Below are positions 4,412 to 56,685 of a stretch of DNA of 64,000 nt, in pieces. A model generated the notes under the pieces. That model was not told the origin of the DNA, did no database searches, and was given only the letters and a program-made list of their open reading frames with translations. Source of the DNA: Deltaproteobacteria bacterium (GTDB taxonomy: Bacteria; Desulfobacterota; GWC2-55-46); the NCBI GenBank assembly GCA_016234935.1, contig JACRNL010000011.1, positions 193,472 through 257,471 on the forward strand, read 5' to 3'. The translations under genes were made by a program, and so were the position numbers. Numbering within the stretch: position 1 is the first letter of the stretch; each line of letters begins with the position of its first letter.

Positions 4412-7057
4412 ATGGAGGTCATTACGACACATACGAACGCGGACCTTGACACGCTCGCGTCAATGGTCGCGGCCAAAAGGCTCTACCCTGACGCCGTGCT
4501 CGCCTTTTCCGGCTCGTTCGAGAAAAAGGTGGCCAAGGCCGTCGAGACGGTGTCCATGCCGTATAAGATAGAAAGCGCGAAGGACATATCCCTTGACGAG
4601 GTCACAAGGCTCATCCTCGTGGACGTCCGTGTGGGCAGGAGGATAGGCCGTTTTTCGGAGATAATCGGCAGGCCCGGCCTCGACATCCACATATACGATC
4701 ACCACCCGTCTACGGACGAGGACATCCGCGGCTCGTCAGAGGTGATAGAGCGGTGCGGCTCGACCACGGCTATCCTCGCGCTCATCCTGCGCGATAAGGG
4801 GGTAAGACTCACGCACAACGAGGCCACGCTTCTCATGGCAGGGATATATGAGGATACCGGTTCGCTCAGCTACCCTTCGACCACGGTCAAGGACTTTGAC
4901 GCGTCGTCATTCCTGCTTTCGTCCGGGGCGGACCTGCGCACGGTGGCCGACCTTTTAAGAAGCGAGATGACCCCGGCTGACGTCTCGCTTTTAAATGAAT
5001 TCCTGCGCTCTGAGGCCACATATACCATCGGCGGCGTGGATATCGTAATCGCGGAGGGCGACGTCGGCAAGTCTTCGGGCGACGTCGCGTCCCTTGCCCA
5101 CAGGATACGGGACATCGAGGGCATGGATTGTCTCTTCGTGCTTGCCGAGGCCGACGGCAGGGTGCATATGATAGCCCGCAGCCGCACCGCGGCCGTGGAT
5201 GCCGGCGCCGTGGCCAGGGAACTCGGCGGATGGGGGCATGAGCACGCGGCCTCAGCGAGCTTCAGGGACCACACCGTTACGGAGGTCAAGGAAATGCTTC
5301 TTGACGCCCTCCGGAGGCTCGTGGTGGCGCGAAGGAAGGCCGAGGACATCATGTCGTTCCCGGCCATCATCGTGGAGGCAGGGACCGCGCTTAAGGGCGC
5401 GATGGAGATAATGAGGAGATACAACATAAACGCCGCGCCGGTGGTGAAGGATGCGGCGCTTTGCGGCGTCATCACGAGGCAGGTGGTGGACAGGGCCGTG
5501 TATCACGGCCTCGGCGGCTTGCCGGTGGATGATTACATGACGACGGATTGCGTCTCGGTTACGTCAGTCACGGCGGTTGAGGAAATACGGGAGATGGTCA
5601 TACGCAGGGGGCAAAGGCTCCTGCCGGTTATTAAGGACGGCAAGGTCGCCGGAGTGATAACGCGAACAGACCTTTTAAAACTCCTTCAGGACGAACTGCT
5701 TGGCAGGCCGGCCGCAAGGGGGGAAAAAAAGGGGCTCAGCCCCTTTAAGGGAAAGCGGCTTTCAAATCTTATGAAGGAAAGGCTTCCGGGCTGGCTCCTT
5801 GAGATATTGAAGGACGCGGGGAAGACCGCGGACGCGCTCGGCGTGAAGATATATGCGGTGGGCGGGTTCGTCAGGGATATGCTCCTCCGGCGGGAGAACC
5901 TCGACGTGGATATAGTAGTCGAGGGCGGGGACGGGATAGCCTTTGCCGAGGAGTTCGCCTCAAAAAGAGGGCTGCGCGTCAGGCCGCACAACAGGTTTAA
6001 AACGGCGGTGGTCATATTCCCGGATGGGTTCAAGATAGACGTAGCCACGGCGCGCCTTGAGTATTACGAAAGACCGGCGGCGCTTCCAACGGTGGAGGCG
6101 TCTTCCTTGAAGCTCGACCTCTACCGGCGCGATTTTATCATCAACACCCTTGCGATAGAGCTTAACCCGAAACGCTTCGGAGAATTGGTTGACTTTTTCG
6201 GCGGAGAGAGGGATATAAAGGAAAAGACCATCAGGGTGCTCCATAACCTCAGCTTCGTTGAAGACCCGACAAGGGCGCTCCGGGCCGTCAGGTTCGCGGA
6301 GAAGTTCGGCTTCAGGCTGGAGCGGCACACCGCAAACCTTATGAAGAACGCCGTGAAGCTCGACATCTTCTCCGGCCTTAAAGGCCCGCGCCTTCTGGAG
6401 GAGCTCAGGAGCATCCTTGAGGAGGAGACCGCGTCAAAGTCCGTGTCCGCTTTGAGCGAACTGGGGCTGCTCGGCCTCATCCACAGGGACATAACGTGGG
6501 ACCATGACAGGGAGCTTTTTTTCGAAAGGACGCGCGAGGCGATAGTATGGCACAGGCTCCTTTATACGAAGGACAAGGTGGAAGAGTGGCTGCCGCTTTT
6601 TCTGGCCCTCACAGACACCCTGAAGGAGGAGGATCTCCTTGCGCTGGCAAAGCGGTTTTCCATATCAGGTAAAAAAAGGATCGGCGTAATAGAGGCAAGG
6701 GGCGACGGCCTGAAGGCCCTTAACCGGATAAACGCCGGACTTGCCGCGAAGAACAGCGGCCTGTATGAACTGCTCCGCGGCATTCCGCTGGAGGTGATAC
6801 TCTACCTGATGGCAAAGACCGGGAAAGACAGCTCAAGGCGCGCCCTGTCCGTCTACGTCACGAAGTCAAGGCACATGGACACCGCGCTAAAGGGCGGCGA
6901 CATCAGGCGGATGGGCATTAAAGAGGGCCGGGCCATCGGCGAGGTATTGAAAGACATTTTAACGCGGCGGCTTGACGGACAGGTTGCCACGAGGGCCGAT
7001 GAAGAGGCGATAGTGAGAACGTATCTCAAATCAGCCGCAAGGGAAAAAGGCGTTTGA
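4412..7057 (+). CDS. DHH-CBS-tRNA nucleotidyltransferase (CCA/A-adding type)
   Basis: An 881-residue multidomain protein. Residues 1-300 form a DHH/DHHA1 phosphoesterase-like domain (H-T-N-A-D-L-D-T and Y-D-H-H-P motifs). Residues 310-430 are a CBS pair. From about 475 there is a class II nucleotidyltransferase/poly(A) polymerase head with G-G-F-V-R-D and a D-V-D metal-binding pair, then the RNA-binding neck and body. This architecture is known from bacterial enzymes that add A or CCA to tRNA 3' ends; whether this one adds A, CC or CCA cannot be read from sequence. A family A repeat is translated in the linker between the CBS and catalytic parts (residues 441-447). The nearby tRNA gene already encodes CCA, suggesting a repair role for that tRNA. 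Confidence 0.85.
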   Translation: MEVITTHTNADLDTLASMVAAKRLYPDAVLAFSGSFEKKVAKAVETVSMPYKIESAKDISLDEVTRLILVDVRVGRRIGRFSEIIGRPGLDIHIYDHHPSTDEDIRGSSEVIERCGSTTAILALILRDKGVRLTHNEATLLMAGIYEDTGSLSYPSTTVKDFDASSFLLSSGADLRTVADLLRSEMTPADVSLLNEFLRSEATYTIGGVDIVIAEGDVGKSSGDVASLAHRIRDIEGMDCLFVLAEADGRVHMIARSRTAAVDAGAVARELGGWGHEHAASASFRDHTVTEVKEMLLDALRRLVVARRKAEDIMSFPAIIVEAGTALKGAMEIMRRYNINAAPVVKDAALCGVITRQVVDRAVYHGLGGLPVDDYMTTDCVSVTSVTAVEEIREMVIRRGQRLLPVIKDGKVAGVITRTDLLKLLQDELLGRPAARGEKKGLSPFKGKRLSNLMKERLPGWLLEILKDAGKTADALGVKIYAVGGFVRDMLLRRENLDVDIVVEGGDGIAFAEEFASKRGLRVRPHNRFKTAVVIFPDGFKIDVATARLEYYERPAALPTVEASSLKLDLYRRDFIINTLAIELNPKRFGELVDFFGGERDIKEKTIRVLHNLSFVEDPTRALRAVRFAEKFGFRLERHTANLMKNAVKLDIFSGLKGPRLLEELRSILEEETASKSVSALSELGLLGLIHRDITWDHDRELFFERTREAIVWHRLLYTKDKVEEWLPLFLALTDTLKEEDLLALAKRFSISGKKRIGVIEARGDGLKALNRINAGLAAKNSGLYELLRGIPLEVILYLMAKTGKDSSRRALSVYVTKSRHMDTALKGGDIRRMGIKEGRAIGEVLKDILTRRLDGQVATRADEEAIVRTYLKSAAREKGV
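5732..5752 (+). repeat. Family A unit, translated in nucleotidyltransferase
   Basis: One 18-nt family A unit read as G-L-S-P-F-K-G at residues 441-447, in the linker between the CBS pair and the catalytic domain. A short poly-lysine stretch precedes it. Confidence 0.75.
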
Positions 7058-8080: not shown

Positions 8081-8722
8081 ATGCCCGTGAAAAAGAGCAC
8101 GGGGGCTGAACCCCTTCAAGGGGCTTTACCCCTTCAAGATGAACTGACCGCCGAATTCCTTGATTCGCTCTCCAAGACCCTTGACGTCGACCAGACCCTT
8201 AAAAAACTGAATATCACGAAGGAAGACGCAAGGGGCATACTTGAGGCTTTGGTCATGCGGAAAAGGCCGCCAAAGGCCGCTCCGGCCCCATCGCCCCCTG
8301 TCCACGGCGCGATAAAGAAAGGTGTTTATCAGATTTACGTTGACGGCGCTTCGCGCGGGAATCCGGGCAAGGCCGGCGCGGGCGCGGCGATAAAAGACGC
8401 CGAAGGCAATGTCGTCAGGAAACTTAAAAGCTATCTCGGCGTAATGACGAACAATATGGCCGAGTACAGCGCGATGATAATGGCATTGAAGGCCGCGCGC
8501 GACATGGGCATCAAGGATATCCGGATACACGCGGATTCGGAGCTGATGGTAAAACAGCTCAACGGCGTATACAGGGTCAAGAGCCATGACCTGATGCCGC
8601 TTTTTTTAGAGGCCACGCACCTTCTGGGGGCTTTTGACGAATATAAGATTGCCCACATATACAGGGAAGGCAACGCCCTTGCCGACGGCCTCGCCAACGA
8701 GGCCATAGATCAGCGCGGGTAG
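8081..8722 (+). CDS. rnhA: Ribonuclease HI with N-terminal extension
   Basis: Degrades the RNA strand of RNA:DNA hybrids. The RNase H fold occupies about residues 80-213, with the four catalytic acidic residues in Y-V-D-G-A-S, M-A-E-Y, H-A-D-S-E and L-A-D-G-L-A. The first 80 residues are an extension not needed for catalysis: two translated family A units at residues 8-19, a short helical segment and a Pro/Ala linker. The protein is 213 residues against about 150 for minimal bacterial RNase HI. It lies between a zinc-ribbon gene and the RNase P RNA, giving an RNA-processing neighbourhood. Confidence 0.9.
   Translation: MPVKKSTGAEPLQGALPLQDELTAEFLDSLSKTLDVDQTLKKLNITKEDARGILEALVMRKRPPKAAPAPSPPVHGAIKKGVYQIYVDGASRGNPGKAGAGAAIKDAEGNVVRKLKSYLGVMTNNMAEYSAMIMALKAARDMGIKDIRIHADSELMVKQLNGVYRVKSHDLMPLFLEATHLLGAFDEYKIAHIYREGNALADGLANEAIDQRG
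8102..8137 (+). repeat. Two tandem family A units, translated in RNase HI
   Basis: Two 18-nt units in tandem, read as GAEPLQ-GALPLQ at residues 8-19 of RNase HI, upstream of the catalytic domain. Confidence 0.8.
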
Positions 8723-11175: not shown

Positions 11176-11373
11176 TCCCCGCACCCCTGCCCTTGCATGT
11201 TAGACTGTGCCATATTACGTAATTTTTAAATCCTTTTTTCTCCTCTCCCCTCGCGGGAGAGGGTAGGGTGAGGGGGTTCAGCCCCCTGAGGGGACTCAGC
11301 CTCTTCAAGGGGCAACTTTCACCCCCACACTACCCTCCCCCATCAAGGGGGAGGAGATAATGAAGGGGTCATC
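11176..11373 (+). repeat. Family C composite repeat with family A-like core
   Basis: A 198-bp intergenic block. It begins CCCCGCACCCCTGCCC, continues with an A+T-rich segment (ATGTTAGACTGTGCCATATT and a TAATTTTTAAAT run) and a hairpin CTCTCCCCTCGCGGGAGAG. Then come family A-like units at 11272-11312 and a second hairpin CCTCCCCCATCAAGGGGGAGG ending in AAGGGGTCATC. The same ordered parts recur at 53081-53238 and, inverted, at 43218-43375. Confidence 0.75.
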
Positions 11374-16766: not shown

Positions 16767-17840
16767 ATGCTCTACTATTTTTTATATCCGCTCGTTAAGT
16801 ATCATACGGTATTTAACGTATTTCAATACATAACCTTCAGGACGATATATGCCGCGGTCACGGCGTTGGCGCTCTCGTTCATCATCGGCCCGTATATCAT
16901 AGAAAGGCTCAAGGCCCTTAATGTGGGAGAGGTCGTCAGGACGGACGGCCCGCCTAACCACTTCAGCAAGGCGGGCACCCCCACGATGGGCGGCGCGATA
17001 ATACTTCTCGTCGTGGTGTTGTCCGTGCTTTTGTGGGGCAACCTCGCCAACCCTTATGTGTGGGTTTTGACATTAGTTACCGTGGGCATGGGGTTTATAG
17101 GCTTTCTTGATGATTACAGCAAGGTGGTCAAGAAGAAAAAGGGCGGCATGAGGGCGTCGACGAAGTTCGTCTCGCAGATAGCCGTCGCGCTCATAGCCGT
17201 GGTCTTTCTCTACCACTCCGGGTTTGACACGGTCGTCACCATTCCGTTTTTGAAGGAGGTCAAGATAAACCTCCACGGGTTTTACATACCTTTCGCGGTG
17301 CTTGTCATCGTGGGCGCGTCCAATGCCGTGAACCTGACGGACGGCCTTGACGGGCTTGCCATAGGGCCGATGATAATCTCCTCGGCCACGTATATGCTTC
17401 TGGCGTATCTGGTCGGGCATGTGAAGATAGCGAGCTACCTGCACGTCATGTTCGTGCCCATGGCCGGAGAACTCGCGGTCTTCGCGGGCGCGATGGTCGG
17501 GGCGAGCCTTGGCTTTCTCTGGTTCAACACCTATCCGGCGCAGGTCTTTATGGGCGACGTCGGGTCTTTGTCCCTTGGCGGCGCGCTCGGCACGCTGGCG
17601 GTCATCACGAAACAGGAGGCGCTGCTTCTGCTTGTCGGCGGCATCTTCGTGGTCGAGGCCCTTTCGGTTATTTTTCAGGTGGGGTCTTTCAAGCTCACGG
17701 GCAAAAGGATGTTCGCCATGGCGCCGATACACCATCATTATGAACTCAAGGGCTGGCCTGAGCCGAAGATAATCGTCAGGTTCTGGATCATCTCGATAAT
17801 CCTCGCGCTAATAGCCATAAGCACGCTTAAGATCAGATGA
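16767..17840 (+). CDS. mraY: Phospho-MurNAc-pentapeptide transferase MraY
   Basis: Transfers phospho-MurNAc-pentapeptide to undecaprenyl phosphate at the inner membrane, forming lipid I. The 357-residue protein has about ten hydrophobic segments, the catalytic F-L-D-D-Y motif near residue 114, N-L-T-D-G-L-D-G near 190 and the C-terminal A-P-I-H-H-H-Y-E. Length matches the family (about 360). Its stop overlaps the murD start. Confidence 0.96.
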
Positions 17841-19315
17841 TGAATATGGTAATGATGAAAGAAAAGAGCGTATTCGCAAGGGAGGCTGAAGGCCTCAGGG
17901 GAAAAAGGTGTCTTGTCGTCGGCCTTGCCTCCACCGGCATCTCCGTTGCAAGGTTTTTGAAAAGGTGCGGGGCCGTTGTCACCGGCACGGATTCAAAGGC
18001 GCTCGGCGCGCTTCCCGGCGCGGCGGAATTGATGGACTCAGGCGCCGCCCCGCACCACTTTTCGTCATTCACATTTTCATCAAACACGGATATCGTTAAC
18101 GGAAAGTGGTGCGGGGCGGAGATGGTAATCGTAAGCCCCGGAGTTCCCCGCAGCCACCCGCTCCTCGACGTCGCGCGTAAAAACGGGGCGGAGGTCATAA
18201 GCGACATCGAGCTTGCCTGCCGGTTCATGGACTGCCCGGTCGTTGCCATAGCCGGGACAAACGGCAAGTCCACGACCACTACGCTCCTTGGCGCCATCCT
18301 TGAAAACGCGGGGAAAAGGGTATTTACAGGCGGAAACCTCGGAACGCCGGCTATCGAGTGCGCTGAAGCGGTTTTGGATAAAGGCATAGGCTTTGACGCC
18401 GTGGTCTGGGAGATATCGAGCTTTCACCTTGAGACGACCAGGCGTTTTAACCCGCGCATAGGCGTGCTTTTGAACATAACCGAAGACCACCTTGACAGGT
18501 ATAAGGATTTTGCCGATTACGCCGCCACGAAGTTCAGGCTGCTTGAAAATCAGGGGCCGGCGGATTACGCGGTGCTGAACGTGAACGACCCGGTGATAGC
18601 GGGATATTTGAAAAAGGGCCTTGCCGGCAAGGGTAAAGTCATTAAATTCAGCGTAGAAGGGGTTTTAACCGAGGGGCGCGGCGCCCTTCAAGGGCGTGAC
18701 GCCCCTCAGGGGCTTTTTTTAAGGGGGAGCGACATCGTTTACATGAACGCCGGGGCCGAGGAGGTTTATCCCACGGCGGGGTTTAAGCTTAGCGGGCTTC
18801 ACAATATTGAAAATATCATGGCCGCAATCGCCTCGGCGCGCGTCCTCGGCATAAATAAAGACGTCATCTTGAAGACGCTCTCCGAGTTTAAGGGGCTTCA
18901 CCACAGGATGGAGCTTGTAAGGCGGTTTGGCGGCGTCGCGTTCGTTGACGACTCCAAGGGCACGAATGTCGGCTCTCTTGTCATGGCGTTAAGGGGGATG
19001 AAGACGCCGGTCGTCCTCATCGCCGGCGGCAGGGACAAGGGCGGGGATTACGGCGTGCTCAGGGATCTGGTCAGAGACAAAGTAAAGGCGATGATCCTCA
19101 TCGGCGAGGCGCGCTTCAGGATACAGGACTGCCTCGGCGCTTTTACCGAGACCGCTTTGGCCGATTCGATGGAAGATGCCGTGGCAAAGGCCTGTTTAAG
19201 GGCCGCCAAGGGCGATACAGTCCTCCTGTGCCCGGCCTGTTCGAGCTTTGACATGTTCAAAAGCTACAAGGAACGCGGCGACGTCTTCAAGGCATTGGTT
19301 GGAAAACTTCAGTAG
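17837..19315 (+). CDS. murD: UDP-MurNAc-L-Ala:D-Glu ligase MurD with two translated repeats
   Basis: Adds D-glutamate to UDP-MurNAc-L-alanine. The nucleotide-sensing N-terminal domain is followed by G-T-N-G-K-S-T-T-T near residue 140, E-I-S-S-F near 194 and the C-terminal A-G-G-R-D-K-G near 395. At 492 residues it is longer than E. coli MurD (438). Much of the excess is explained by a family B hairpin element read through at residues 71-94, just before V-I-V-S-P-G-V-P, and two family A units at 280-292. Core motifs are intact, so the enzyme is probably functional despite both inserts. An ATGA overlap joins it to mraY. Confidence 0.95.
18046..18118 (+). repeat. Family B hairpin element translated inside MurD
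   Basis: A 73-bp element bounded by 19-bp inverted repeats, 18046-18064 (CGCCCCGCACCACTTTTCG) and 18100-18118 (CGGAAAGTGGTGCGGGGCG), with one mismatch. It stays open in the MurD frame. The interior resembles the reverse complement of the interior at 27051-27083. Confidence 0.8.
18674..18712 (+). repeat. Two diverged family A units, translated in MurD
   Basis: Two 18-nt units read as [13 protein letters not shown] at residues 280-292, in the central domain of MurD. More diverged than other copies, with the C/G blocks interrupted by GCG. Confidence 0.65.
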
Positions 19316-28354: not shown

Positions 28355-28705
28355 GGGGTTGAACCCCTACAAGGGGAGCCTCCCCCAGCTTCAGCCTGCC
28401 CTCGAATGTTTCTATCGGGGGGCACGCGAGGGTTGAACCCTTTCAAAGGGGTTGAACCCCCTCAGGGGGCAGGCGGCTTCGCTTTTTCCGCCCTTTTCGC
28501 CTGGGGGCGCGCGGATTATTGCCTGTTAGGCGGCGGTATCGCGCCCTTGGCTTCTTGTCTTTTGGGCGTGTTTCATTATTTTCAAATGTAAGGCCGCACC
28601 CTGCTAATCCCCTTTTAAAGCCTGCGGGGACATGTATTTAAGCGGAACGCGGCTTGGGCCTCGTATTTCCCCACGTCCTTCCCGCCTTGAAACACCTTCC
28701 ATTCT
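28355..28705. repeat. Repeat-filled gap after ftsZ
   Basis: A gap of 351 bases. It holds a family A unit directly at the ftsZ stop (28355-28377), family F-like fragments (CCTGCCCTCG, GGCACGCGAGGG) near 28396-28432, two more family A units at 28430-28469, and a fragment CCTGCGGGGACATGT at 28621-28635. That fragment also occurs in the repeat at 58636-58736. I see no gene in it. Confidence 0.65.
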
Positions 28706-30493
28706 ATGAGACAATCTTATATTGGACAGGAGGTTTTTAGAATCAGCTGGAAACTGAAACAGAAGGTAAGGGATATCCTTTCCGAGGAGCAGGGGACGGT
28801 CTATAAAAGCCATGCCGGAAAGGTCAGGGTCTGTCTTGTGTGGCCCAATGTTTACGCGCTCGGCATGACGAACCTTGGCTTCCAGACGGTCTGCCGCCTG
28901 CTCAATGACATGGAAAATTGCGTCTGCGAAAGGGCCTTTCTTCCTTCAAAAGAGGACGCGCTGGAGTTTTCAAGGACAGGCACCGAGCTTTTTTCGCATG
29001 AGACGCAGACGCCGCTGCATGAGTTCGATATAATCGCCTTTTCCGTATCCTTTGAAGATGATTACTTCAACATCCCCGCCATACTGTCGCTTGCAAATAT
29101 CCCGGTGCGTTCATCTGAAAGAAGACAGGGGCCGAATCCCCTCAGGGGGTCGAACCCCCTCAGGGGGCAATACCCCGTAATAATCGCAGGCGGGGCCGCA
29201 GTGTCGCTTAATCCCGAACCGCTTGCGGAAATCTGCGATCTTTTTTTGCTCGGCGAAGGCGAGGGCGCGCTCACGGAGTTCATCGCCCTCTTTGAGAGGA
29301 TTGAAAAAGCAGATATCTCAAGGCGCCGGCAGGAGGCTGTCAGAGAGCTTGACTCTCTGCCGTTTGTCTATGTGCCGTCCCTGTATGAGTTTGAATATGA
29401 CGGGGCAAAGGTAAGGGCGATACGTCCGCTGAGGGGCGCGAAGGAAAGGATAAGGGCCTGTAAAAACCTGAGCCTTGATAATTTCATCATCCCGCAGAGT
29501 TTCATACGCACGCCCAGCACCGGTTTCGGCGGCACGCCGCTTGTGGAGATAGAGCGCGGATGCGGCAGGGGCTGCAGGTTCTGCGTCGCCGGTTTTTTGT
29601 ATCTTCCGCCGCGCAGCAGAAATGCCGATGCGGTTAAAGAGGCCGTGGAAAGCGGCATAAAGGCAACCGGCAAGGCCGGCCTCGTAGGGGCGGCGGTATC
29701 CGAGTATCCGCAGATAAAGGAGCTTCTTCGGGCCGGAGTGTCGCTGGGAGCGGAGGTGACGCTATCTTCCCTCAGGACCGATATGCTTGACGCGGAGCTT
29801 CTCGCGCTTTTAAATATGGCGGGCTACAAGACGGTCACGCTCGCGCCGGAGGCAGGCTCCCAGCGGATGCGCGGCGTCATCAACAAAGGCATTGACGACA
29901 GGGGGATAATGGAAGCCGTCTCCCTTATTACAGAGGCCGGATTTACGAGGATAAAGCTCTACTTCCTCATCGGCCTGCCGCTTGAGGAGGACGCCGACGC
30001 CGAGGCCGTCGTTGACCTTTCCCTGCGAATAAAAGCCGCGATGAAAAAGGGTTCTCTTGCCCTGAGCGTAAATCCGTTCATACCCAAACCTTTCACCCCT
30101 TTCCAGTGGCACGGCTTCGCGGACAGGGCTGACGTCCAAAGGCGCCTTGCCATCATAAAAAAAGGCATCGCGCGCCAAAGAGGCGTCACGATGAGCGCGA
30201 TGTCGGCAAACGAGGCATTCACTCAAGCCTACGTCTCCCGCGCCGATAGAAGGGCGTCGGAGTTTATTATCGAGGCGTCTATAAAAGGCCCAAGGCGCGC
30301 GGCAAAGGCAGTAGCCGCGCTCATGGAAGAGTCGGTCCACAGACAAAGGGAGCATGATGAGATATTGCCCTGGGATCTGATAGACCACGGGCTTAAAAAG
30401 GATTATCTATGGAAGGAATACCGGAAGGGGCTTGATGGAAAACCGACTCCGGCCTGCAATGTCGGCGCGTGCTTGAGATGCGGGGTCTGCTGA
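28706..30493 (+). CDS. B12-binding-type radical SAM protein, N-terminal family
   Basis: The 595-residue protein has an N-terminal B12-binding-like domain (V-W-P-N-V-Y-A-L-G-M-T-N-L-G near residue 35). A radical SAM core follows, with the [4Fe-4S] motif C-G-R-G-C-R-F-C near 286 and a C-terminal C-x-x-x-x-C-L-R-C-G-V-C cluster. It belongs to the same broad family as the next gene (TIGR03960-like) and its substrate is unknown. Two family A units are translated at residues 142-154. The start is uncertain: AGGAGG lies inside the frame at about 28731, so translation may begin a dozen codons later at a non-ATG codon. Confidence 0.8.
   Translation: MRQSYIGQEVFRISWKLKQKVRDILSEEQGTVYKSHAGKVRVCLVWPNVYALGMTNLGFQTVCRLLNDMENCVCERAFLPSKEDALEFSRTGTELFSHETQTPLHEFDIIAFSVSFEDDYFNIPAILSLANIPVRSSERRQGPNPLRGSNPLRGQYPVIIAGGAAVSLNPEPLAEICDLFLLGEGEGALTEFIALFERIEKADISRRRQEAVRELDSLPFVYVPSLYEFEYDGAKVRAIRPLRGAKERIRACKNLSLDNFIIPQSFIRTPSTGFGGTPLVEIERGCGRGCRFCVAGFLYLPPRSRNADAVKEAVESGIKATGKAGLVGAAVSEYPQIKELLRAGVSLGAEVTLSSLRTDMLDAELLALLNMAGYKTVTLAPEAGSQRMRGVINKGIDDRGIMEAVSLITEAGFTRIKLYFLIGLPLEEDADAEAVVDLSLRIKAAMKKGSLALSVNPFIPKPFTPFQWHGFADRADVQRRLAIIKKGIARQRGVTMSAMSANEAFTQAYVSRADRRASEFIIEASIKGPRRAAKAVAALMEESVHRQREHDEILPWDLIDHGLKKDYLWKEYRKGLDGKPTPACNVGACLRCGVC
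29129..29167 (+). repeat. Two family A units, translated in radical SAM protein
   Basis: Two tandem 18-nt units read as GPNPLR-GSNPLR-G at residues 142-154, in the N-terminal domain just before a conserved I-I-A-G-G-A-A segment. Confidence 0.8.
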
Positions 30494-41908: not shown

Positions 41909-42823
41909 ATGGACATCTGGGGCGAAACAAACATAGATTTTCTCGGCAGGCGCAAAATAGCTTTTTTCTTTTCCGGCATAGCGGCCATTATCGGGCTTAT
42001 CGCGATATTGGCCATCCCCATGGGGAAGGCCAACCTCGGCACGGACTTCGCCGGAGGCGTCTCCATACAGTTCAGGTTCGATAAGCCGGTGCATATAGAA
42101 GGCGTAAGAAAGCTTCTTGAGGCAAGCGGCTTCAGGGACGCGAACCTTCAGGAGTTCGCCGAGCCTAATAAGCTCCTCGTGCGCTTTAAAAGGACGGACA
42201 CGGACCTGCGCGCCGTATCGAAGTCCATCGGAGACGTCTTGACAAAGGGCATGCCCGACAACCATTTTAACGTCGAGTCCACCACGGAGGTCGGCCCTAC
42301 GGTCGGCAAAAAACTCCAGAGGGACGCCCTTATGGCGATAGGGATATCGATGCTCGGAATACTCATTTACATCGCGTGGCGTTTTGATTTCCGTTTCGGC
42401 GTGGCCGCCGTCGTGGCGACATTGCACGACGTGCTCGCGGTAATGGGTCTCCTTTTTGTTTTAAATAAGGAGATGAGCCTTCTTATCGTCACGGCGCTTC
42501 TGACCCTTGCCGGATATTCGCTTACGGACACTGTCGTTGTCTTTGACCGCATCCGCGAGAACATGAGAAAGCATACGAAGGAAGCCCCGATACCGCTTAT
42601 CAACAGGAGCATTAACGAAGTCCTGAGAAGAACGATCGTCACTTCACTGACGACGCTTCTTGCCACATTCGCACTGCTCATCATGGGCAGTGAAGTCATC
42701 CATGATTTTTCCCTCGCGCTCTTTGTCGGCGTTCTTGTAGGGACATACTCATCCATCTTCATAGCGAGTCCTGTTCTCCTTTTCTGGGAGAAAAAGGGCA
42801 AGCAAGAGCCTGCCAAGGTCTAA
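41909..42823 (+). CDS. secF: Protein translocase subunit SecF
   Basis: Partner of SecD. The 304-residue protein has six transmembrane segments, the G-T-D-F-A-G-G-V motif near residue 45, and V-F-D-R-I-R-E-N near 210. ATG at 41909 follows CCGGAGG by four bases; a TTG directly before it is less likely. The 100-base gap after secD holds an imperfect inverted repeat (CCGGTTATCGGC / GCCGATGACCGATAACCG). Confidence 0.95.
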   Translation: MDIWGETNIDFLGRRKIAFFFSGIAAIIGLIAILAIPMGKANLGTDFAGGVSIQFRFDKPVHIEGVRKLLEASGFRDANLQEFAEPNKLLVRFKRTDTDLRAVSKSIGDVLTKGMPDNHFNVESTTEVGPTVGKKLQRDALMAIGISMLGILIYIAWRFDFRFGVAAVVATLHDVLAVMGLLFVLNKEMSLLIVTALLTLAGYSLTDTVVVFDRIRENMRKHTKEAPIPLINRSINEVLRRTIVTSLTTLLATFALLIMGSEVIHDFSLALFVGVLVGTYSSIFIASPVLLFWEKKGKQEPAKV

Positions 42824-43044: not shown

Positions 43045-43157
43045 GCATGCTCCTTAAGGACTACCATGGGTCATTACAAGGGTTGAGCCGCCGAAAATTG
43101 AAAAGATGACGGATACTCGTCCATGGTTATTGTTTCCAGCCGGAACTCCGCCCGCAT

Positions 43158-43197
43158 GGGCTGAGCCCCCTCAGGGGGTTGAACCCCCTCAGGGGGT
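43158..43197. repeat. Two tandem family A units, intergenic
   Basis: GGGCTGAGCCCCCTCAGG followed immediately by GGGTTGAACCCCCTCAGG and a further GGGG. These are the cleanest copies of the 18-nt unit and were used to define its consensus. Confidence 0.85.
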
Positions 43198-43217: not shown

Positions 43218-43375
43218 GATGACCACTTCCTTATCTCCTCCCCCGCACCACTCGCCTGTACGGCTGTTTGCGTTAAATGATGTATTTGTGATGGCGAGTG
43301 GTGCGGGGGAGGAGATAAAAAGATTTAAAAATTACGCAAATAGGGCACTGTCTAACATACACGGGCAGGGTGGGA
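43218..43375 (-). repeat. Inverted family C repeat with nested family B element
   Basis: Read on the minus strand this has the family C parts in order: CCCACCCTGCCC, the ATGTTAGACAGTGCC and TAATTTTTAAAT stretch, then ATCTCCTCCCCC, a family B element (43241-43309), and GATAAGGAAGTGGTCATCG. The B element lies exactly at the centre of the C hairpin, giving an extended 26-bp inverted repeat (43231-43256 / 43293-43318). Confidence 0.75.
43241..43309 (+). repeat. Family B hairpin element nested in family C
   Basis: GCACCACTCGCC and GGCGAGTGGTGC ends with an interior containing CGGCTGTTTGCGTTAAATGA, very close to the copy at 37503-37570. Confidence 0.85.
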
Positions 43376-43384
43376 GACGTGGAT

Positions 43385-44989
43385 ATGACCGTTGGCAATA
43401 TAATGAAAGCGCGCGAGGAGCTGGATATGCTCCTATGGCGTGAATTTCAGGATGGGCTGACCATCCTCCTTGACGTTCCTATTGGGCTCTACGACCGTAA
43501 CGGTTCCTTGCTTATTCCGGCGAGCAAGGAGTCCTCTATGTGCAGCGCGGCAGCCGGCCACGAAAAGACGGCCGCGCTGTGCGCGGAGCAGTGCCGTGAT
43601 GCGATAGCCTGCGCCATTGAAAAGAAGCAGATATATATCTACAAATGCCACGCAAACCAGCATGTCTTTGCCGTGCCCGTATTCCCGGACGCATCCGTCG
43701 CATTTGTCATCGTCGGCGGCAAGGTCTATCTTGAAGGGGGCGACCCCCTTCAAGGGGGCGGCCTCAAGGACTTTTACAGGGCGGCGGCGGATTTCGGCTT
43801 TGACGATGATTCCGTTAAAAAGATAAAAGAAGGCATTAAGGTCGCCTCTTCCAAGTCCGTGTCCGCTCTGCCGGGCATCGTCAGCGGCATTGCGGCGCCT
43901 TTCCTTAAGTGTCTCTATGCCAAAAGCGACCATGTGATAAGCGCCGGAGCCGCCGATACGCACTGGTTCAAAGGTTTTTACGCCCTTGAGCAGGTCTATA
44001 AGTCCATCGCCCCGCTCTTTGACAAAGAGGAGATTTACGACTCCGTTCTTTTAAGCTGCATGGATATTGTCGGGGCCGAGAGGGGATCCCTGATGCTCCT
44101 TGACAACAAGAGCAACGTGCTTTCCATAAAGGCGTCAAGGGGGCTGGACAGGGACGTCCTTGACAACATCAGCATACATCTGGGCGAAGGCATAGCGGGA
44201 GGCGTAGCGGCAAAGGGCGAGCCTGTCATGGTTGAGGATATCGAGCACGAAGTCATGGAGCACAGGAATATGCCGTGGTACAAGACCAAGTCCTTTATTT
44301 CCATGCCGTTAAGGCTCGACAACCGCGTCATAGGCGTCATCAATATTTCCGACAAGCTCACCGGAGGCGTGTTCTCCAAGGAAGACCTCCTGCTCGTCAA
44401 GTCTATCGCCAACTACGCGTCCATCGCCCTTGAAAGGGGCGCTTATTACAGCATGAGCGAGGAGTTGAAGCTCCTGTCAATGACCGACGCCCTAACGGGT
44501 CTTTTTAACCGGAGATACTTCCTTGAGAGGCTTTTCGAGGAGGTGGAGCGCGTAAAGAGACACAACGAAAAATTTTCCCTGTTTATCCTTGACATAGACA
44601 ACTTCAAGGCGTTTAACGACAGATACGGGCACAGCGTAGGCGATGAGATACTCAAGCTCGCGTCAAAGATCATAAGGGACGCGGTGAGGTCAATAGACGT
44701 CGTGGCACGCTATGGAGGAGAGGAGTTCGTGGTGCTCCTTCCGCACACATCCAAGGGTGAATCTCTCGTAATCGCCGAGAGGATAAGGCGCGGCATCGAG
44801 GAGATGAAGCAGGCCGGGGCCGTCTTCAGGGGGCTGAACCCCTTAAAGGGGACGCCGACCATCTCCGTCGGCATAGCGGAATTCCCCGGCGACGCCGAGA
44901 CCATAGACGACCTTGTTGAACATGCCGACAAGGCCATGTACGCCGCCAAGCGCATGGGCAGGAACAGGGTTGTAATGTATCAGGGTTGA
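43385..44989 (+). CDS. PocR-GAF-GGDEF diguanylate cyclase
   Basis: Soluble signalling protein of 534 residues. Residues 10-180 form a Cys-containing PocR-type sensory domain (L-D-V-P-I-G-L-Y-D-R-N-G; C-x-x-x-C-R-D-A). A GAF domain spans about 205-350. The GGDEF domain from about 365 has Y-G-G-E-E-F at its active site and an R-S-I-D inhibitory site five residues before it. It should make c-di-GMP from GTP with product inhibition. Two family A units are translated, at residues 118-125 in the sensor and 483-489 in a GGDEF loop. The ATG at 43385 is preferred to a GTG at 43370. Confidence 0.88.
   Translation: MTVGNIMKAREELDMLLWREFQDGLTILLDVPIGLYDRNGSLLIPASKESSMCSAAAGHEKTAALCAEQCRDAIACAIEKKQIYIYKCHANQHVFAVPVFPDASVAFVIVGGKVYLEGGDPLQGGGLKDFYRAAADFGFDDDSVKKIKEGIKVASSKSVSALPGIVSGIAAPFLKCLYAKSDHVISAGAADTHWFKGFYALEQVYKSIAPLFDKEEIYDSVLLSCMDIVGAERGSLMLLDNKSNVLSIKASRGLDRDVLDNISIHLGEGIAGGVAAKGEPVMVEDIEHEVMEHRNMPWYKTKSFISMPLRLDNRVIGVINISDKLTGGVFSKEDLLLVKSIANYASIALERGAYYSMSEELKLLSMTDALTGLFNRRYFLERLFEEVERVKRHNEKFSLFILDIDNFKAFNDRYGHSVGDEILKLASKIIRDAVRSIDVVARYGGEEFVVLLPHTSKGESLVIAERIRRGIEEMKQAGAVFRGLNPLKGTPTISVGIAEFPGDAETIDDLVEHADKAMYAAKRMGRNRVVMYQG
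43736..43758 (+). repeat. Family A unit, translated in PocR domain
   Basis: One unit read as GGDPLQ-GG at residues 118-125 of the diguanylate cyclase, between V-Y-L-E and L-K-D-F-Y. Confidence 0.75.
44831..44851 (+). repeat. Family A unit, translated in GGDEF domain
   Basis: One unit read as GLNPLK-G at residues 483-489. It lies in the loop before the conserved T-I-S-V-G-I-A strand, where GGDEF domains tolerate length variation. Confidence 0.8.
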
Positions 44990-45171: not shown

Positions 45172-47049
45172 ATGAAAAAGCGTTGGAAAGTAGCTCCGGT
45201 CAATGCCGGGCTTCAGGCTGTCCTCGCGAGGGAACTTAATATCCTGCCTCTCACGGCTCAGCTTCTGGTGAACAGAGGCCTTGTTGACGCAGACAGGGCC
45301 TTTTCTTTTTTGAACCCGGAGCTTAAAGACCTGCACGACCCGTTTCTTTTGAAAGACATGGACAGGGCAGTGGAGCGATTGCTTTGCGCGCTGGCTAAAG
45401 GCGAGCAAATAGCCGTCTACGGCGACTACGACGTTGACGGCACGACCGCCTGCGCGCTGTTATACCTCTTTTTCAGGGACATCGGCGCCGGCGTCGTTCC
45501 ATATATCCCTGACAGGCGCTCCGAAGGCTACGGCCTTAACGCCGGGGCCGTCAGGAAGCTGCAGGCGCGAGGGGTTGACCCCCGTCACGGGGCTGAGCCC
45601 CCTCAGGGGGTAAAGGTAATAATAACCGTAGACTGCGGCTCGTCGAACCATGACGAGGTGGCGCTGGCCAATACGCTCGGCATTGACGTCATCGTAACGG
45701 ACCATCACGAGCTTCCCCCCATCCCGCCCCCTGCCCTTGCGGTTATAAATCCAAAGAGACATGACTGCCCCTTCCCGTTCAAGGGGCTTGCCGGCGTTGG
45801 AGTCGCCTTCTATCTGATTATCGCCCTGCGCGCGCGCTTGAGGAGCGCGGGATGGTTCAAGGGGTTGAACCCCGTCACGGGGCTCGGCCCCCTCCGTGAG
45901 CCTAATCTTAAAAAATATCTTGACCTTGTGTGCATCGGGACAGTGGCGGACATGGTGCCCTTGCAGGGATCCAACAGGGTCTTCGTCAGCCAGGGGCTCA
46001 GGGAGCTTGAAAATACGGTCCGTCCCGGCCTCGTGGAGTTAAAAAAGGTCGCGGGTGTTTCGGCGGTGGATGCCGATACCATCGCCTTTCAGCTCGCCCC
46101 GAGGCTTAATGCGGCCGGCCGGCTTGGGCAGGCGCTTACTTCCTTCAAGCTGCTTACGACCGGCGATCCGCGTGAGGCCGCGTCTATCGCCGCAGAGCTC
46201 GATAAGGAGAACAGGGACAGGCAGGCGCTCGAAGAGGAGATATTGAACGAGGCGCTTTTGATGCTCGAAGGCCGCCCGGCGGCGGACGAAACCCTTCAAG
46301 GGTCAGGAAGGAAGGGGTTGAATCCTCTCAGGGGGCTCAGCCCCTTCAAGGGGATAGTCCTTCATTCGGACAGGTGGCACCCCGGGGTCATCGGCATCGT
46401 CGCGTCGCGCCTTGTGGAGAGATTTTACAGACCCACTGTGATGATAGCCTTTGATAAAGACGGCGGACAGGGCAGAGGGTCGGCGCGGGGGATAAAATTC
46501 TTTAACCTGCTTGAGGGGCTCGAGGCCTGTTCCGGCCTCCTTGAAAGGTTCGGCGGACATAAGGCCGCAGCCGGGCTTACGGTCAGAAGGGATAAGGTCG
46601 AGGCATTTTCCGCCGAGTTCCTCCGGTATCTGGATACGGCGCTCTCTGACGAGGACCTCGTGCCGGAGGTCGCGCTTGATGCGGAGGTTAAGCTCGCGGA
46701 CTTCGACATGAAGCTCCCTGAGGGAGTTCAACTCCTCGGTGAGATAGGCAGGCTTGCCCCATTCGGCATGGCGAACGCGAAGCCGCTTTTTTGTCTCATC
46801 GGGGCGAGCATCATACAGACCGAGATAGTGAAGGAAAAACATTTAAGGTTCAAGCTCCGTCAGGATTCGTCGGCCTGCAGCGGAATCGGCTTTGGCCTTG
46901 CAAGGCTGCACCCTATGCGCGGAGAAGGCTACCGCATTGCGTTCTCGCCCTATGCCGATGAATGGCGCGGCGCTAAAAACCTCGGCCTCAGGATAAAAGA
47001 TGTGCAGGTTCAGCCCGGCACCACTCGCCATGACAGACGCATCATTTAG
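45172..47049 (+). CDS. recJ: Single-strand exonuclease RecJ with three translated repeat blocks
   Basis: A 5'-3' single-strand DNA exonuclease for repair. The DHH motifs are present: Y-G-D-Y-D-V-D-G-T near residue 83, D-C-G near 153, D-H-H near 178, and the DHHA1 F-G-G-H-K-A-A-A-G-L near 460, followed by an OB-fold end. At 625 residues it exceeds E. coli RecJ (577). Family A units at 134-146, 231-242 and 382-394 plus linker account for much of this. The last 12 codons and the stop lie inside a family B element at 47013-47082, so the native C-terminus has been replaced or extended. Catalytic motifs appear intact. Confidence 0.94.
   Translation: MKKRWKVAPVNAGLQAVLARELNILPLTAQLLVNRGLVDADRAFSFLNPELKDLHDPFLLKDMDRAVERLLCALAKGEQIAVYGDYDVDGTTACALLYLFFRDIGAGVVPYIPDRRSEGYGLNAGAVRKLQARGVDPRHGAEPPQGVKVIITVDCGSSNHDEVALANTLGIDVIVTDHHELPPIPPPALAVINPKRHDCPFPFKGLAGVGVAFYLIIALRARLRSAGWFKGLNPVTGLGPLREPNLKKYLDLVCIGTVADMVPLQGSNRVFVSQGLRELENTVRPGLVELKKVAGVSAVDADTIAFQLAPRLNAAGRLGQALTSFKLLTTGDPREAASIAAELDKENRDRQALEEEILNEALLMLEGRPAADETLQGSGRKGLNPLRGLSPFKGIVLHSDRWHPGVIGIVASRLVERFYRPTVMIAFDKDGGQGRGSARGIKFFNLLEGLEACSGLLERFGGHKAAAGLTVRRDKVEAFSAEFLRYLDTALSDEDLVPEVALDAEVKLADFDMKLPEGVQLLGEIGRLAPFGMANAKPLFCLIGASIIQTEIVKEKHLRFKLRQDSSACSGIGFGLARLHPMRGEGYRIAFSPYADEWRGAKNLGLRIKDVQVQPGTTRHDRRII
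45571..45609 (+). repeat. Family A block 1 in RecJ
   Basis: Two 18-nt units read as GVDPRH-GAEPPQ-G at residues 134-146, between A-V-R-K-L-Q-A-R and V-K-V-I-I-T-V-D-C-G. It precedes a conserved DHH-family strand. Confidence 0.85.
45862..45897 (+). repeat. Family A block 2 in RecJ
   Basis: Two units read as GLNPVT-GLGPLR at residues 231-242, between a hydrophobic helix and the conserved L-D-L-V-C-I-G-T-V-A-D strand. Confidence 0.8.
46315..46353 (+). repeat. Family A block 3 in RecJ
   Basis: Two units read as GLNPLR-GLSPFK-G at residues 382-394. A degraded half-unit (ACCCTTCAAGGG) lies just upstream at 46291-46302. It precedes the conserved W-H-P-G-V-I-G-I motif. Confidence 0.85.
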
Positions 47050-49833: not shown

Positions 49834-50856
49834 ATGAGAGTCGGGCTTACATACAACCTCAGAAAAGAGGTCAGCTCCGCGGAAGGACTTCCCGAGGACT
49901 TTTACGCTGAATGCGATGCCGCCTCGACGATTGACGCGGTAAAGGCCGCCATCCTTGACAGGCACGAAGACGTCATAATGGTCGAGGCCGATGAATGCGC
50001 CTTTGAAAAGCTAAAGAAGGAAAGACCTGACATAGTCTTCAATATGGCCGAGGGTCTCTGGGGCGAAAGCCGCGAGGCCCAGTTGCCGGCCATAATGGAG
50101 ATGCTTCGGATACCATACACCGGCTCATCCCCGCTCGCCCTCGCCCTGACTCTCAACAAGGCAAAGGCCAAGGAAATACTCTCATGCCACGGAGTGCCAA
50201 CGGCCAGGTTCACGGTAGCGGCCGACGCCTCCTTTGACGCCGTCATGGCCGCGTCCCGTCTTAACTTTCCCATGATGGTCAAGCCGCTCCTTGAAGGCTC
50301 CAGCAAGGGGATAAGGAACGACTCGGTTGTGCATAATATTGACTCCCTCAAAAAAAAGGTGGAAAGCCTTATCAGCGGCTACCGGCAACCGGCGCTAATC
50401 GAAGAGTACCTTGACGGCAGGGAGTTTACCGTCGCACTTCTCGGCAACGGCGCCAAGCTCCGCTGCCTGCCGATTGTCGAGATAAACTATTCGGCCCTTC
50501 CGGAAGGCGTAACCCCGATATACTCATACGAGGCCAAGTGGATATTCGACAGGCCTGAGAGCCCCTTGGATATATTCAGCTGTCCGGCCAAACTTGACGC
50601 CGGGCTCAAAAAAGCGATAGAGGCCGCGGCTATTAACGCATTTAACGCCCTTGACATAAAGGACTGGTGCAGAATAGACGTAAGGCTCGACCGCGCCGGC
50701 GCGCCGAACATCATAGAGCTTAATCCGCTGCCCGGCATCCTTGCGGACCCAAGAGAGAATTCATGCTTTCCCAAGGCCGCAAGGGCCGCGGGGCTTGACT
50801 TCAGCACCATGGTCAATTCTGTAATTGACATTGCGCGGGAGCGTTACGGCATATGA
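49834..50856 (+). CDS. ATP-grasp ligase 1, D-Ala-D-Ala ligase-like
   Basis: The 340-residue protein has the Ddl-type fold: a Rossmann-like N-terminus (M-R-V-G-L-T-Y-N-L-R), N-M-A-E-G near residue 71, I-P-Y-T-G-S near 92, ATP-grasp M-V-K-P-L-L-E-G-S-S-K-G near 148, E-E-Y-L-D-G-R-E-F and the metal-binding E-L-N-P-L-P-G near 292. It differs from the true Ddl at 23961 and lies in a polyamine operon. It should join a carboxylate to an amine with ATP, but the substrates are unknown. Its stop overlaps the start of the second ligase. Confidence 0.8.
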   Translation: MRVGLTYNLRKEVSSAEGLPEDFYAECDAASTIDAVKAAILDRHEDVIMVEADECAFEKLKKERPDIVFNMAEGLWGESREAQLPAIMEMLRIPYTGSSPLALALTLNKAKAKEILSCHGVPTARFTVAADASFDAVMAASRLNFPMMVKPLLEGSSKGIRNDSVVHNIDSLKKKVESLISGYRQPALIEEYLDGREFTVALLGNGAKLRCLPIVEINYSALPEGVTPIYSYEAKWIFDRPESPLDIFSCPAKLDAGLKKAIEAAAINAFNALDIKDWCRIDVRLDRAGAPNIIELNPLPGILADPRENSCFPKAARAAGLDFSTMVNSVIDIARERYGI

Positions 50857-51908
50857 ATTTGAAAGGGGTTGAACCCCCTCAGGGGGTAAGGATAATATAC
50901 AACGACGACACCGGCGCTCCGGATGCCCACAATCCTGTTGACGCCAGGCTCTATCCTGACCTTGAGGAAGTGGCCGAGACAGCCGCGGAGGTAGACGCCG
51001 CGCTCCGCGCGGAAGGTTTCCGGACGGTTGTCACGCCGCTGCGCGCCTCAGGAAGGGGCGCGCTTACGGACTTCGTCCGTGAGATAAGCGCTGGCGCCGA
51101 GGGCATGATCTTCAATATCTGCGAAGGCGCCTTTGGCAGGAGCTCCCTTGAGATGAACGTCGCCGCGCTGCTGGAGCTGCACGGATTGAAGTTTACCGGA
51201 AGCCCGTCCCTGACGCTGGGGCTTAGCCTTGACAAAGGGCTTTCAAAGGATATTTTGAGCAGCCGCGGCATCATGACGCCGGATTACTGTGTGCTTAATG
51301 ACGTCCCCTCGAAGCTTAAAGGACATCTCGACTTCCCTCTGATAGTGAAGCCGCTTCGCGAGGACGCAAGCATCGGCATTGATTCCGGCGCGGTCGTAAG
51401 CACGATGAAGGAGCTGAAGGCGCGCGTCGAGCTGGTCTTGACGAAGTACAAACAGCCGGCAATTATCGAGGAGTACATCGAAGGCAGGGAGTTTAACGTG
51501 GCCGTCATAGGCAACGGCAAGGAGATGAAGGCGCTTCCTCTGGCGGAGCTGACCTTCGTCGACTTCCCCGCGGGCGTGCCGCGGATATGCAGCTACGAGG
51601 CAAAATGGCTTCCAACCAGCGTTCTTTACAAAAAGACCGTCCCCCAATGTCCGGCGGACGTCAGCGAAGAGCTGCAGGCTGAGATGACGGTCGTTGCCGA
51701 AAGGGCATACGAGGCGATGGGCTGCCGGGACTATGCGAGGGTGGACATGAGGGTAGGGGAGAGCGGCATCCTGAAGGTGCTTGAGGTAAACCCCAATCCG
51801 GATCTGTCGTCCAACGCAGGGCTCGCGAGGGCCGCCGGCGCGGCGGGCTTTTCTTATTCGAAGTTCATCGCCGGGATCGTCGCGACAGCGGCTAAAAGAT
51901 ACGAATAG
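50853..51908 (+). CDS. ATP-grasp ligase 2, D-Ala-D-Ala ligase-like
   Basis: A 351-residue paralogue of the preceding ligase. It has N-I-C-E-G-A-F-G near residue 88, L-K-F-T-G-S-P near 112, I-V-K-P-L-R-E-D-A-S-I-G near 165, E-E-Y-I-E-G-R-E-F near 207 and L-E-V-N-P-N-P near 310. The first codons are unusual: after M-N-L-K comes a translated family A unit (residues 5-11) and only then the family-typical V-R-I-I-Y-N start. ATG overlaps the previous stop (ATGA), suggesting coupled translation and possibly a heteromeric or sequential pair. Confidence 0.8.
   Translation: MNLKGVEPPQGVRIIYNDDTGAPDAHNPVDARLYPDLEEVAETAAEVDAALRAEGFRTVVTPLRASGRGALTDFVREISAGAEGMIFNICEGAFGRSSLEMNVAALLELHGLKFTGSPSLTLGLSLDKGLSKDILSSRGIMTPDYCVLNDVPSKLKGHLDFPLIVKPLREDASIGIDSGAVVSTMKELKARVELVLTKYKQPAIIEEYIEGREFNVAVIGNGKEMKALPLAELTFVDFPAGVPRICSYEAKWLPTSVLYKKTVPQCPADVSEELQAEMTVVAERAYEAMGCRDYARVDMRVGESGILKVLEVNPNPDLSSNAGLARAAGAAGFSYSKFIAGIVATAAKRYE
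50865..50885 (+). repeat. Family A unit at the N-terminus of ATP-grasp ligase 2
   Basis: One unit read as GVEPPQ-G at residues 5-11, immediately after the start and before the first predicted beta strand. Confidence 0.8.
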
Positions 51909-53080: not shown

Positions 53081-53238
53081 TCCCCCACCCTGCCCTTGTA
53101 TGTTAGACTGTGCCATATTGCGTAATTTTTAAATCTTTTTTTCCCCTCTCCCCTCGCGGGAGGGGGTAGGGTGCGGGGGGGCTTTTTTTCACCCCCACCC
53201 TACCCCCTCAAGGGGGAGGAGAAAAGGAAGGGGCCATC
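53081..53238 (+). repeat. Family C composite repeat upstream of rimI
   Basis: Full-length copy: CCCCCACCCTGCCC, then ATGTTAGACTGTGCCATATT and TAATTTTTAAAT, hairpin CTCTCCCCTCGCGGGAG, then CACCCCCACCC, hairpin CCCCCTCAAGGGGG, and GGAAGGGGCCATC. Nearly collinear with 11176-11373, but without the family A block. Confidence 0.8.
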
Positions 53239-55923: not shown

Positions 55924-56685
55924 ATGAGATGGTTAGGTTTTTATTCGACGGAGGTTTACCATCCGATATCAATGATAACCGATTCATTACGTGATTATTT
56001 TCGGCGGATTGGCGGAAAAAAAGATAAACGTCAACAGAAAACCTCCTTGCCGCGCATTCATTGGAAATCGGCGATTCAAAGGAAGCCGATAGTTCTGTGT
56101 GAATTGCAGAAAGCGGATGGAAATGTCCGAATATCGGAACTTGGGATTATTTGCCAGTTTGCGCGTTCTCTGAAAGGGGCTGAGCCCCCTCAGGGGGAAG
56201 GATTGATTTTTGAAATAGGGACATTTGACGGCAGAACAACCTTGAATTTTGCATTAAATGCTGAAAATTACAAGATAGTCACACTCGATCTTCCTTCAAA
56301 ATCGCAGACGGAATTAAGAGTAGAGCCGAGTGAAAAAAAATATATCAAGAAGCATATTTCAGGAGAACGGTTTATAAAAAATGCGGCAAGATTTCCGGAA
56401 TCCGTCAAGAAAATACGGCAGCTTTACGGAGATTCGGCGGCATTCGATTATGCGGAGTTTGAAGGAAAATGCGATATGGTTTTTGTGGATGGTTCTCATT
56501 CGTATGAATACCTGAGAAAAGACAGTGAAACAGCTTTTCGGCTGCGCAGTAAGGAAGGAATAATTATTTGGCATGATTATGGAGTGTGGGAAGGCGTCAC
56601 CAGAGGATTGGAAGAAATCGAGAGAGAAACAAAGATCGGGTTGAAACACATTGCAGGAACAAGTTTAGTAGTCCTGAAGCGTTGA
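55924..56685 (+). CDS. Class I SAM methyltransferase-like protein, A+T-rich
   Basis: The 253-residue protein has a Rossmann methyltransferase core: F-E-I-G-T-F-D-G-R-T-T near residue 96, I-V-T-L-D-L near 117 and M-V-F-V-D-G-S-H-S-Y-E-Y near 185. This resembles Methyltransf_24 or cephalosporin-hydroxylase-like proteins that often sit in polysaccharide clusters. Base composition is clearly more A+T-rich than its neighbours, suggesting acquisition by transfer. A family A unit is translated at residues 85-91, just before the core. Substrate unknown. Confidence 0.7.
   Translation: MRWLGFYSTEVYHPISMITDSLRDYFRRIGGKKDKRQQKTSLPRIHWKSAIQRKPIVLCELQKADGNVRISELGIICQFARSLKGAEPPQGEGLIFEIGTFDGRTTLNFALNAENYKIVTLDLPSKSQTELRVEPSEKKYIKKHISGERFIKNAARFPESVKKIRQLYGDSAAFDYAEFEGKCDMVFVDGSHSYEYLRKDSETAFRLRSKEGIIIWHDYGVWEGVTRGLEEIERETKIGLKHIAGTSLVVLKR
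56176..56196 (+). repeat. Family A unit, translated in methyltransferase
   Basis: One unit read as GAEPPQ-G at residues 85-91. It stands out as G+C-rich within an A+T-rich gene, as expected for a later insertion. Confidence 0.85.

Follow-up and report, generated by a model that had tools for sequence, protein, structure and literature searches.

The bacterial genome analysed here (2.15 Mb), of which a stretch of 64 kb was studied in detail (the window), carries a dispersed repeat that is apparently young, restricted to its lineage, and non-autonomous. The repeat unit, a period of 18 bp, is made of two overlapping 13-bp palindromes (GGGG YTGAR CCCC YTCAR). Hundreds of these 18-base palindromic inserts are present in this one species, about half of them inside genes in an 859-kb sample. 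As judged from aligned orthologs, the copies inside genes have added 6 or 12 amino acids to the host proteins.

An 18-bp palindromic period in one genome

GGGG and CCCC blocks alternate at 9-nt steps and are separated by 5-nt YTSAR spacers. The first 464 kb contain 155 exact cores, each consisting of one block (GGGG or CCCC), a YTSAR spacer, and the other block. CTCAG, TTCAA, CTGAG, and TTGAA are the commonest spacers. Asymmetric ones are rare (between C4 and G4: CTCAG 23, TTCAA 19, CTCAA 2); hence, each 13-mer is an odd-centred palindrome. Neighbouring cores overlap at 9-nt steps, so that an array is a chain of palindromes, in which the number of 9-nt steps is mostly even. Among 142 elements in 859 kb, 54 have two spacers (22 nt) and 46 have four (40 nt). 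Single-core and odd-step copies are only partly accounted for by a whole-period model. The sequence-only reading had named 18 nt as the unit. This holds for the tandem 18-nt copies at five sites of the window (marked T in Table 1), but the underlying step is 9 nt, with alternating G4 and C4. In a comparison of folding with shuffled sequences, the two-period strand of the GCGC type folded better (z = -2.7), whereas a single period was no better.

Exact CCCCYTSARGGGG cores number 350 in the genome of origin, whereas the 39 relatives compared, which share its family or order, have 0 to 4 apiece; the reversed control pattern of CCCCYTSARGGGG gave 0 matches in the genome of origin. The inner 14-mer YTGARCCCCYTCAR is present there in 228 copies (106 + 122; control 0), and the 22-mer GGGGYTGAACCCCYTCARGGGG was found in 1 of 297 genomes of the phylum, namely this one. 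Chance occurrence is ruled out by the core counts, set against the control and the relatives, by the 14-mer count, set against its control, and by the restriction of the 22-mer to this genome. A phage origin was dropped after a search of viral contigs with 0 matches, and the 13-mers were not found in the literature searched. A Candidatus Proendomicrobium MAG carries one array built to these rules (GGGG cttag CCCC ttgaa GGGG ttcaa CCCC), shortly before an ATG (L059:1607-1637); as this is the sole array in that genome, this MAG was rejected as a second carrier.

By location, 73 of the 142 elements are genic, 63 are intergenic, and 6 lie at gene edges. These counts, and those for phase and orientation below, refer to 859 kb (40% of the genome) and to genes called with a simple codon-usage script. 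The copy at ~43157-43197, on which the sequence-only reading had centred, is intergenic because the preceding called gene ends at 42823 and the next starts at 43385. A long intergenic inverted repeat (CTTATCTCCTCCCCCGCACCACTCGCC ... GGCGAGTGGTGCGGGGGAGGAGATAA) occupies 43228-43319, directly upstream of the PocR-GAF-GGDEF gene. The diverged tandem copy in Table 1 is possibly an older member.

Table 1. Copies of the 18-nt element, longer-repeat copies, and loci of the sister-genome repeat. Positions are those of the window unless a contig (L number) is given; T, 18-nt tandem repeat found by tandem-repeat calling.
Feature	Position	Strand	Context
Two periods (T), TGGG ctgag CCCC ctcag GGGG ttgaa CCCC ctcag GGGG	~43157-43197	+	Intergenic
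recJ host gene	45172..47049	+	Domains DHH, DHHA1, RecJ_OB
recJ copy 1 (T)	45571..45610	+	36 nt, read as a 12-aa insertion (RGVDPRHGAEPP)
recJ copy 2	45861..45900	+	KGLNPVTGLGPLRE
recJ copy 3	46314..46353	+	KGLNPLRGLSPFKG
Two periods (T)	29128..29167	+	Radical-SAM gene 28706-30493; missing in 4 orthologs
Two periods (T)	8102..8141	+	N-terminus-proximal in RNase H-like gene 8081-8722
One period	5731..5752	+	DHH/CBS/poly(A)-polymerase-like gene 4412-7057
One period	50865..50886	+	Codons 5-12 of ATP-grasp (D-Ala-D-Ala ligase-like) gene 50853-51908
One period	44830..44851	+	PocR-GAF-GGDEF gene 43385-44989
Single exact core	43745..43757	+	PocR-GAF-GGDEF gene 43385-44989
Two periods	11273..11312	+	Intergenic, within longer repeat
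Longer-repeat copy, empty site	53158..53200	+	CGGGGGGGCTTTTTTTCACCCCC
One period	28355..28376	+	Intergenic
One period	28448..28469	+	Intergenic
One period	56176..56197	+	Intergenic
Diverged tandem copy (T)	18674-18713		GGGCGCGACGCCCCTCAA; in gene 17837-19315
Longer-repeat copies	11233-11360, 53140-53230; L043:12262, L130:1214 and 15424, L046:12695, L049:18696, L121:10855, L122:12591		
Repeat of G300	L181:10773-11941; L185, L198, L201-L208, L216		

Genic copies: insertion, reading phase, and orientation

RecJ: all three copies are missing from 22 same-family orthologs, and the first corresponds to exactly 12 residues. PheT: the 12-residue segment GRTPSGGRTPSG is missing from 19 orthologs. In further clear cases, each with 2-4 orthologs, one-period copies correspond to 6 residues (L048:2308, L116:1, both sites at L122:11517, and L048:5917) and two-period copies to 12 (L117:2287 and L116:16670). 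Within variable loops, the apparent insertion length in the ortholog alignment ranges from 4 to 14 residues. The orthologs used are ~55-80% identical, and the pre-insertion state was read from these or from paralogous intergenic sites. As 18 nt equal six codons, the reading frame downstream of an insertion always stays the same. From these alignments, it appears that essential enzymes can receive loops of exactly 6 or 12 residues from a dispersed repeat and remain intact.

In the sense direction, translation gave two open frames (G-A/V-E-P-P/L-Q and G-L-N/S-P-L/F-R/K) and a third one containing TGA, as had been read from the sequence at the outset. The antisense direction likewise has two open frames and one closed frame; hence, stop codons alone cannot produce an orientation bias. 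The 73 genic copies are distributed over phases 0/1/2 as 41/1/31, while the phases of ordinary G-runs predict ~27% in the closed phase. The closed phase is scarce because of its in-frame TGA, and selection against it, one of the explanations offered earlier, is supported by the single copy found in this phase. Six called genes end on a TGA inside an element (one of the six overlaps another gene call). Insertions in the closed phase thus do take place, and gene ends tolerate them.

Orientation is defined for 53 genic copies in the 859 kb, with a sense to antisense ratio of 43:10 (p = 5.6e-6). For copies between co-directional genes, the ratio is 16:22 (Fisher p = 1.6e-4 against the genic copies). 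The frame and strand count of genic against intergenic copies that had been proposed as a check gave an excess of both open phases and sense orientation. That all genic copies are sense is true of the window, whose genes are nearly all on the + strand, but 10 of 53 are antisense in the genome-wide sample. Considering the supply of ARGGGGY versus ARCCCCY on the coding strand in open phases, 73% sense copies are expected and 81% are seen (p = 0.12). With the supply of plain GGGG versus CCCC, 65% are expected and the excess remains (p = 0.009). The sense excess largely follows from target-like G-runs being commoner on the coding strand.

Insertion sites and mode of spread

The 18-nt element is often found within a longer intergenic repeat (CTCTCCCCTCGCGGGAGAGGGTAGGGTGAGGGGG...CACCCCCACCCTACCCTCCCCCATCAAGGGGGAG). 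At a shared G-run, copies of this longer repeat carry 0 periods (L043:12262 and window 53158), 1 period (L130:15424 and L046:12695), or 2 periods (window 11255, L049:18696, L121:10855, and L122:12591; in the last two, the G-run is one or two bases longer). As these paralogous sites are intergenic and hold 0, 1, or 2 units, the 18-nt step is intrinsic to the element and not a product of coding selection.

Target duplications were counted starting from the inner 14-mer, independent of the flanking blocks; element finding based on the blocks is biased. GGGG stands on both sides of 69 of the 99 inner motifs and on neither side of 2; the other 28 have it on one side, opposite an imperfect block. 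Identical imperfect (non-GGGG) blocks flank 1 of the 99. Target-site duplication was rejected because, among the 30 informative copies, GGGG is confined to one side in 28, and identical non-GGGG blocks are present in 1. The copy at 8102 ends with the block GATG, which excludes a duplication there. Since GGGG is often one-sided, an insertion usually brings in one of the two blocks, and the other belongs to the pre-existing site. At L048:9798-9819, the final GGGG of the element is the exact 5' end of a tRNA-Ala gene. The sequence just outside an element is itself repeat-like, with R at -1 in 54 of 65 copies (background 51%) and Y at +1 in 48 of 65 (background 56%). As this signal covers ~2 nt per side, a recognised target site and microhomology are not separable. 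The pattern fits whole-period insertion at short similar sites, via template switching or an enzyme with a G4 target.

On balance, we consider it probable that the element is a miniature relative in kind of the Rickettsia palindromic element (RPE), adding whole periods at short ARGGGGY-like sites by template-switch copying; our best guess for the mode of spread is whole-period copying at short similar sites. In the comparisons with orthologs and paralogous sites, each event adds one or two complete periods next to a short purine/G-run site (ARGGGGY-like) that was already there, without target duplication. Most likely, replication or repair would briefly switch onto an existing hairpin-prone copy via a short match, and the switched synthesis would copy one or two periods and return via the same match. 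Two of three phases translate through, with G-x-x-P-x-x resulting from the sense orientation. An insertion in the third phase creates an in-frame TGA and survives only where the gene can end. A so far unrecognised enzyme could yield the same pattern of insertion.

The insertion point of IS200/IS605 elements lies 3' of a short target, which is not duplicated. A REP/IS200-IS605-like element, moved as single-stranded hairpin DNA to a place beside a fixed 4-nt GGGG target by an unrecognised or lost transposase, would explain a small palindromic repeat, the G4 adjoining the insertion, and the lack of target duplication; the orientations agree with control by the target strand. Our profile searches for mobility enzymes covered PF01797 and PF00078. 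The former (Y1_Tnp/RAYT) was not found in the genome of origin, whereas the control search was positive in 5 of 14 genomes. In addition, about half of the copies are genic, unlike REPs, and the orientation of intergenic copies has no link to local GC skew in a small sample. Hence, we regard a transposase of this type as unlikely. Less likely still is that the repeats serve the cell, as a protein binding site, in chromosome organisation, or as an mRNA hairpin, and that selection favours copies at new sites. The well-preserved palindromic symmetry of the spacers, CTCAG and TTCAA far outnumbering CTCAA, and the high copy density would agree with it. Recent copying, however, also predicts the symmetry, the repeat is limited to one genome among relatives, and copies lie in loops of housekeeping enzymes without a common role, which makes the functional explanation doubtful.

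Growth of pre-existing short sequences by slippage in place would account for the varying unit number (0, 1, or 2) at equivalent sites, but one specific 18-nt sequence occurs at well over 100 unrelated sites and the ortholog sites have no seed unit; we give local expansion as the sole process very little credence. Equally improbable is that the sense bias stems from insertion through an RNA intermediate or from selection for a Gly-ended peptide. The genic ratio is somewhat above the target expectation (81% versus 65-73%), but the reverse transcriptase RVT_1 (PF00078) was absent from the genome of origin in the profile search, antisense copies are found in genes, and a supply of ARGGGGY-type targets is not rejected. 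The orientation-specific or RNA-mediated spread suggested by the sequence-only reading is therefore not needed. Insertion sizes and target preference are directly readable in this system, as is the lack of target duplication, which makes the mechanism of spread testable.

Comparison with related and known repeat systems

G300, a genome of another genus in the same family, contains an 18-nt repeat (GGCCAAMATGCCACYRGT) with alternating complementary blocks GTGGC/GCCAC. It has 27 exact copies there and 0 in 29 other genomes of the family. In the contigs read, it forms arrays of 1-6 units that are mostly intergenic, and in-frame copies lie in the same two RecJ loops as the G4/C4 element. Both repeats are exactly 18 nt, confined to a single genome, and built of alternating blocks, whereas their sequences are unrelated. 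Comparable high-copy 12-mers were not found in 100-kb samples of four other relatives. As a tentative possibility, the two repeats may belong to a class of ultra-short (18-bp) coding palindromes that copy whole periods into short similar sites throughout a genome, without transposase or target duplication, and that had repeated origins within one family, each with its own sequence but all with a period of 18 nt.

In-frame selfish repeats in bacterial genes have mainly been described in Rickettsia and Wolbachia, and how they move is not known. The system described here is much smaller, apparently young, and abundant, and it belongs to another lineage. REPs are tied to the RAYT transposase. They resemble the element in being short, palindromic, and of high copy number, but they are extragenic and mostly GTAG- or CGTC-tagged (PMC3733652), whereas about half of the copies here are genic and PF01797 is absent. 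MITEs (Correia, ERIC, and RUP) are likewise small non-autonomous repeats, some of which are fused in frame to genes (PMC2229807); they measure about 100-200 bp, have terminal inverted repeats, and often come with target duplications. Here, duplications were not found, and the searches with PF01797 and PF00078 identified no matching insertion sequence. The reverse transcriptase of retroelements (PF00078) is absent from the genome.

By described features, the closest known kind is the RPE. The palindromic repeats of Rickettsia and Wolbachia measure 100-150 bp and occur between genes and in frame within genes (PMC3767692, PMC2229807). Like these, the 18-nt element is dispersed, palindromic, and both intergenic and in-frame genic, and extra peptide segments are tolerated in conserved genes. 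Dispersal in and between genes and in-frame insertion relative to orthologs are thus shared with RPEs. RPEs, however, have a length of about 100-150 bp, carry terminal inverted repeats, and occur in another family, whereas here 18 or 36 nt with periodic G4/C4 blocks are inserted and the element is confined to one genome. As the size and terminal repeats differ from those of RPEs, we place the element next to them and do not file it as an RPE.
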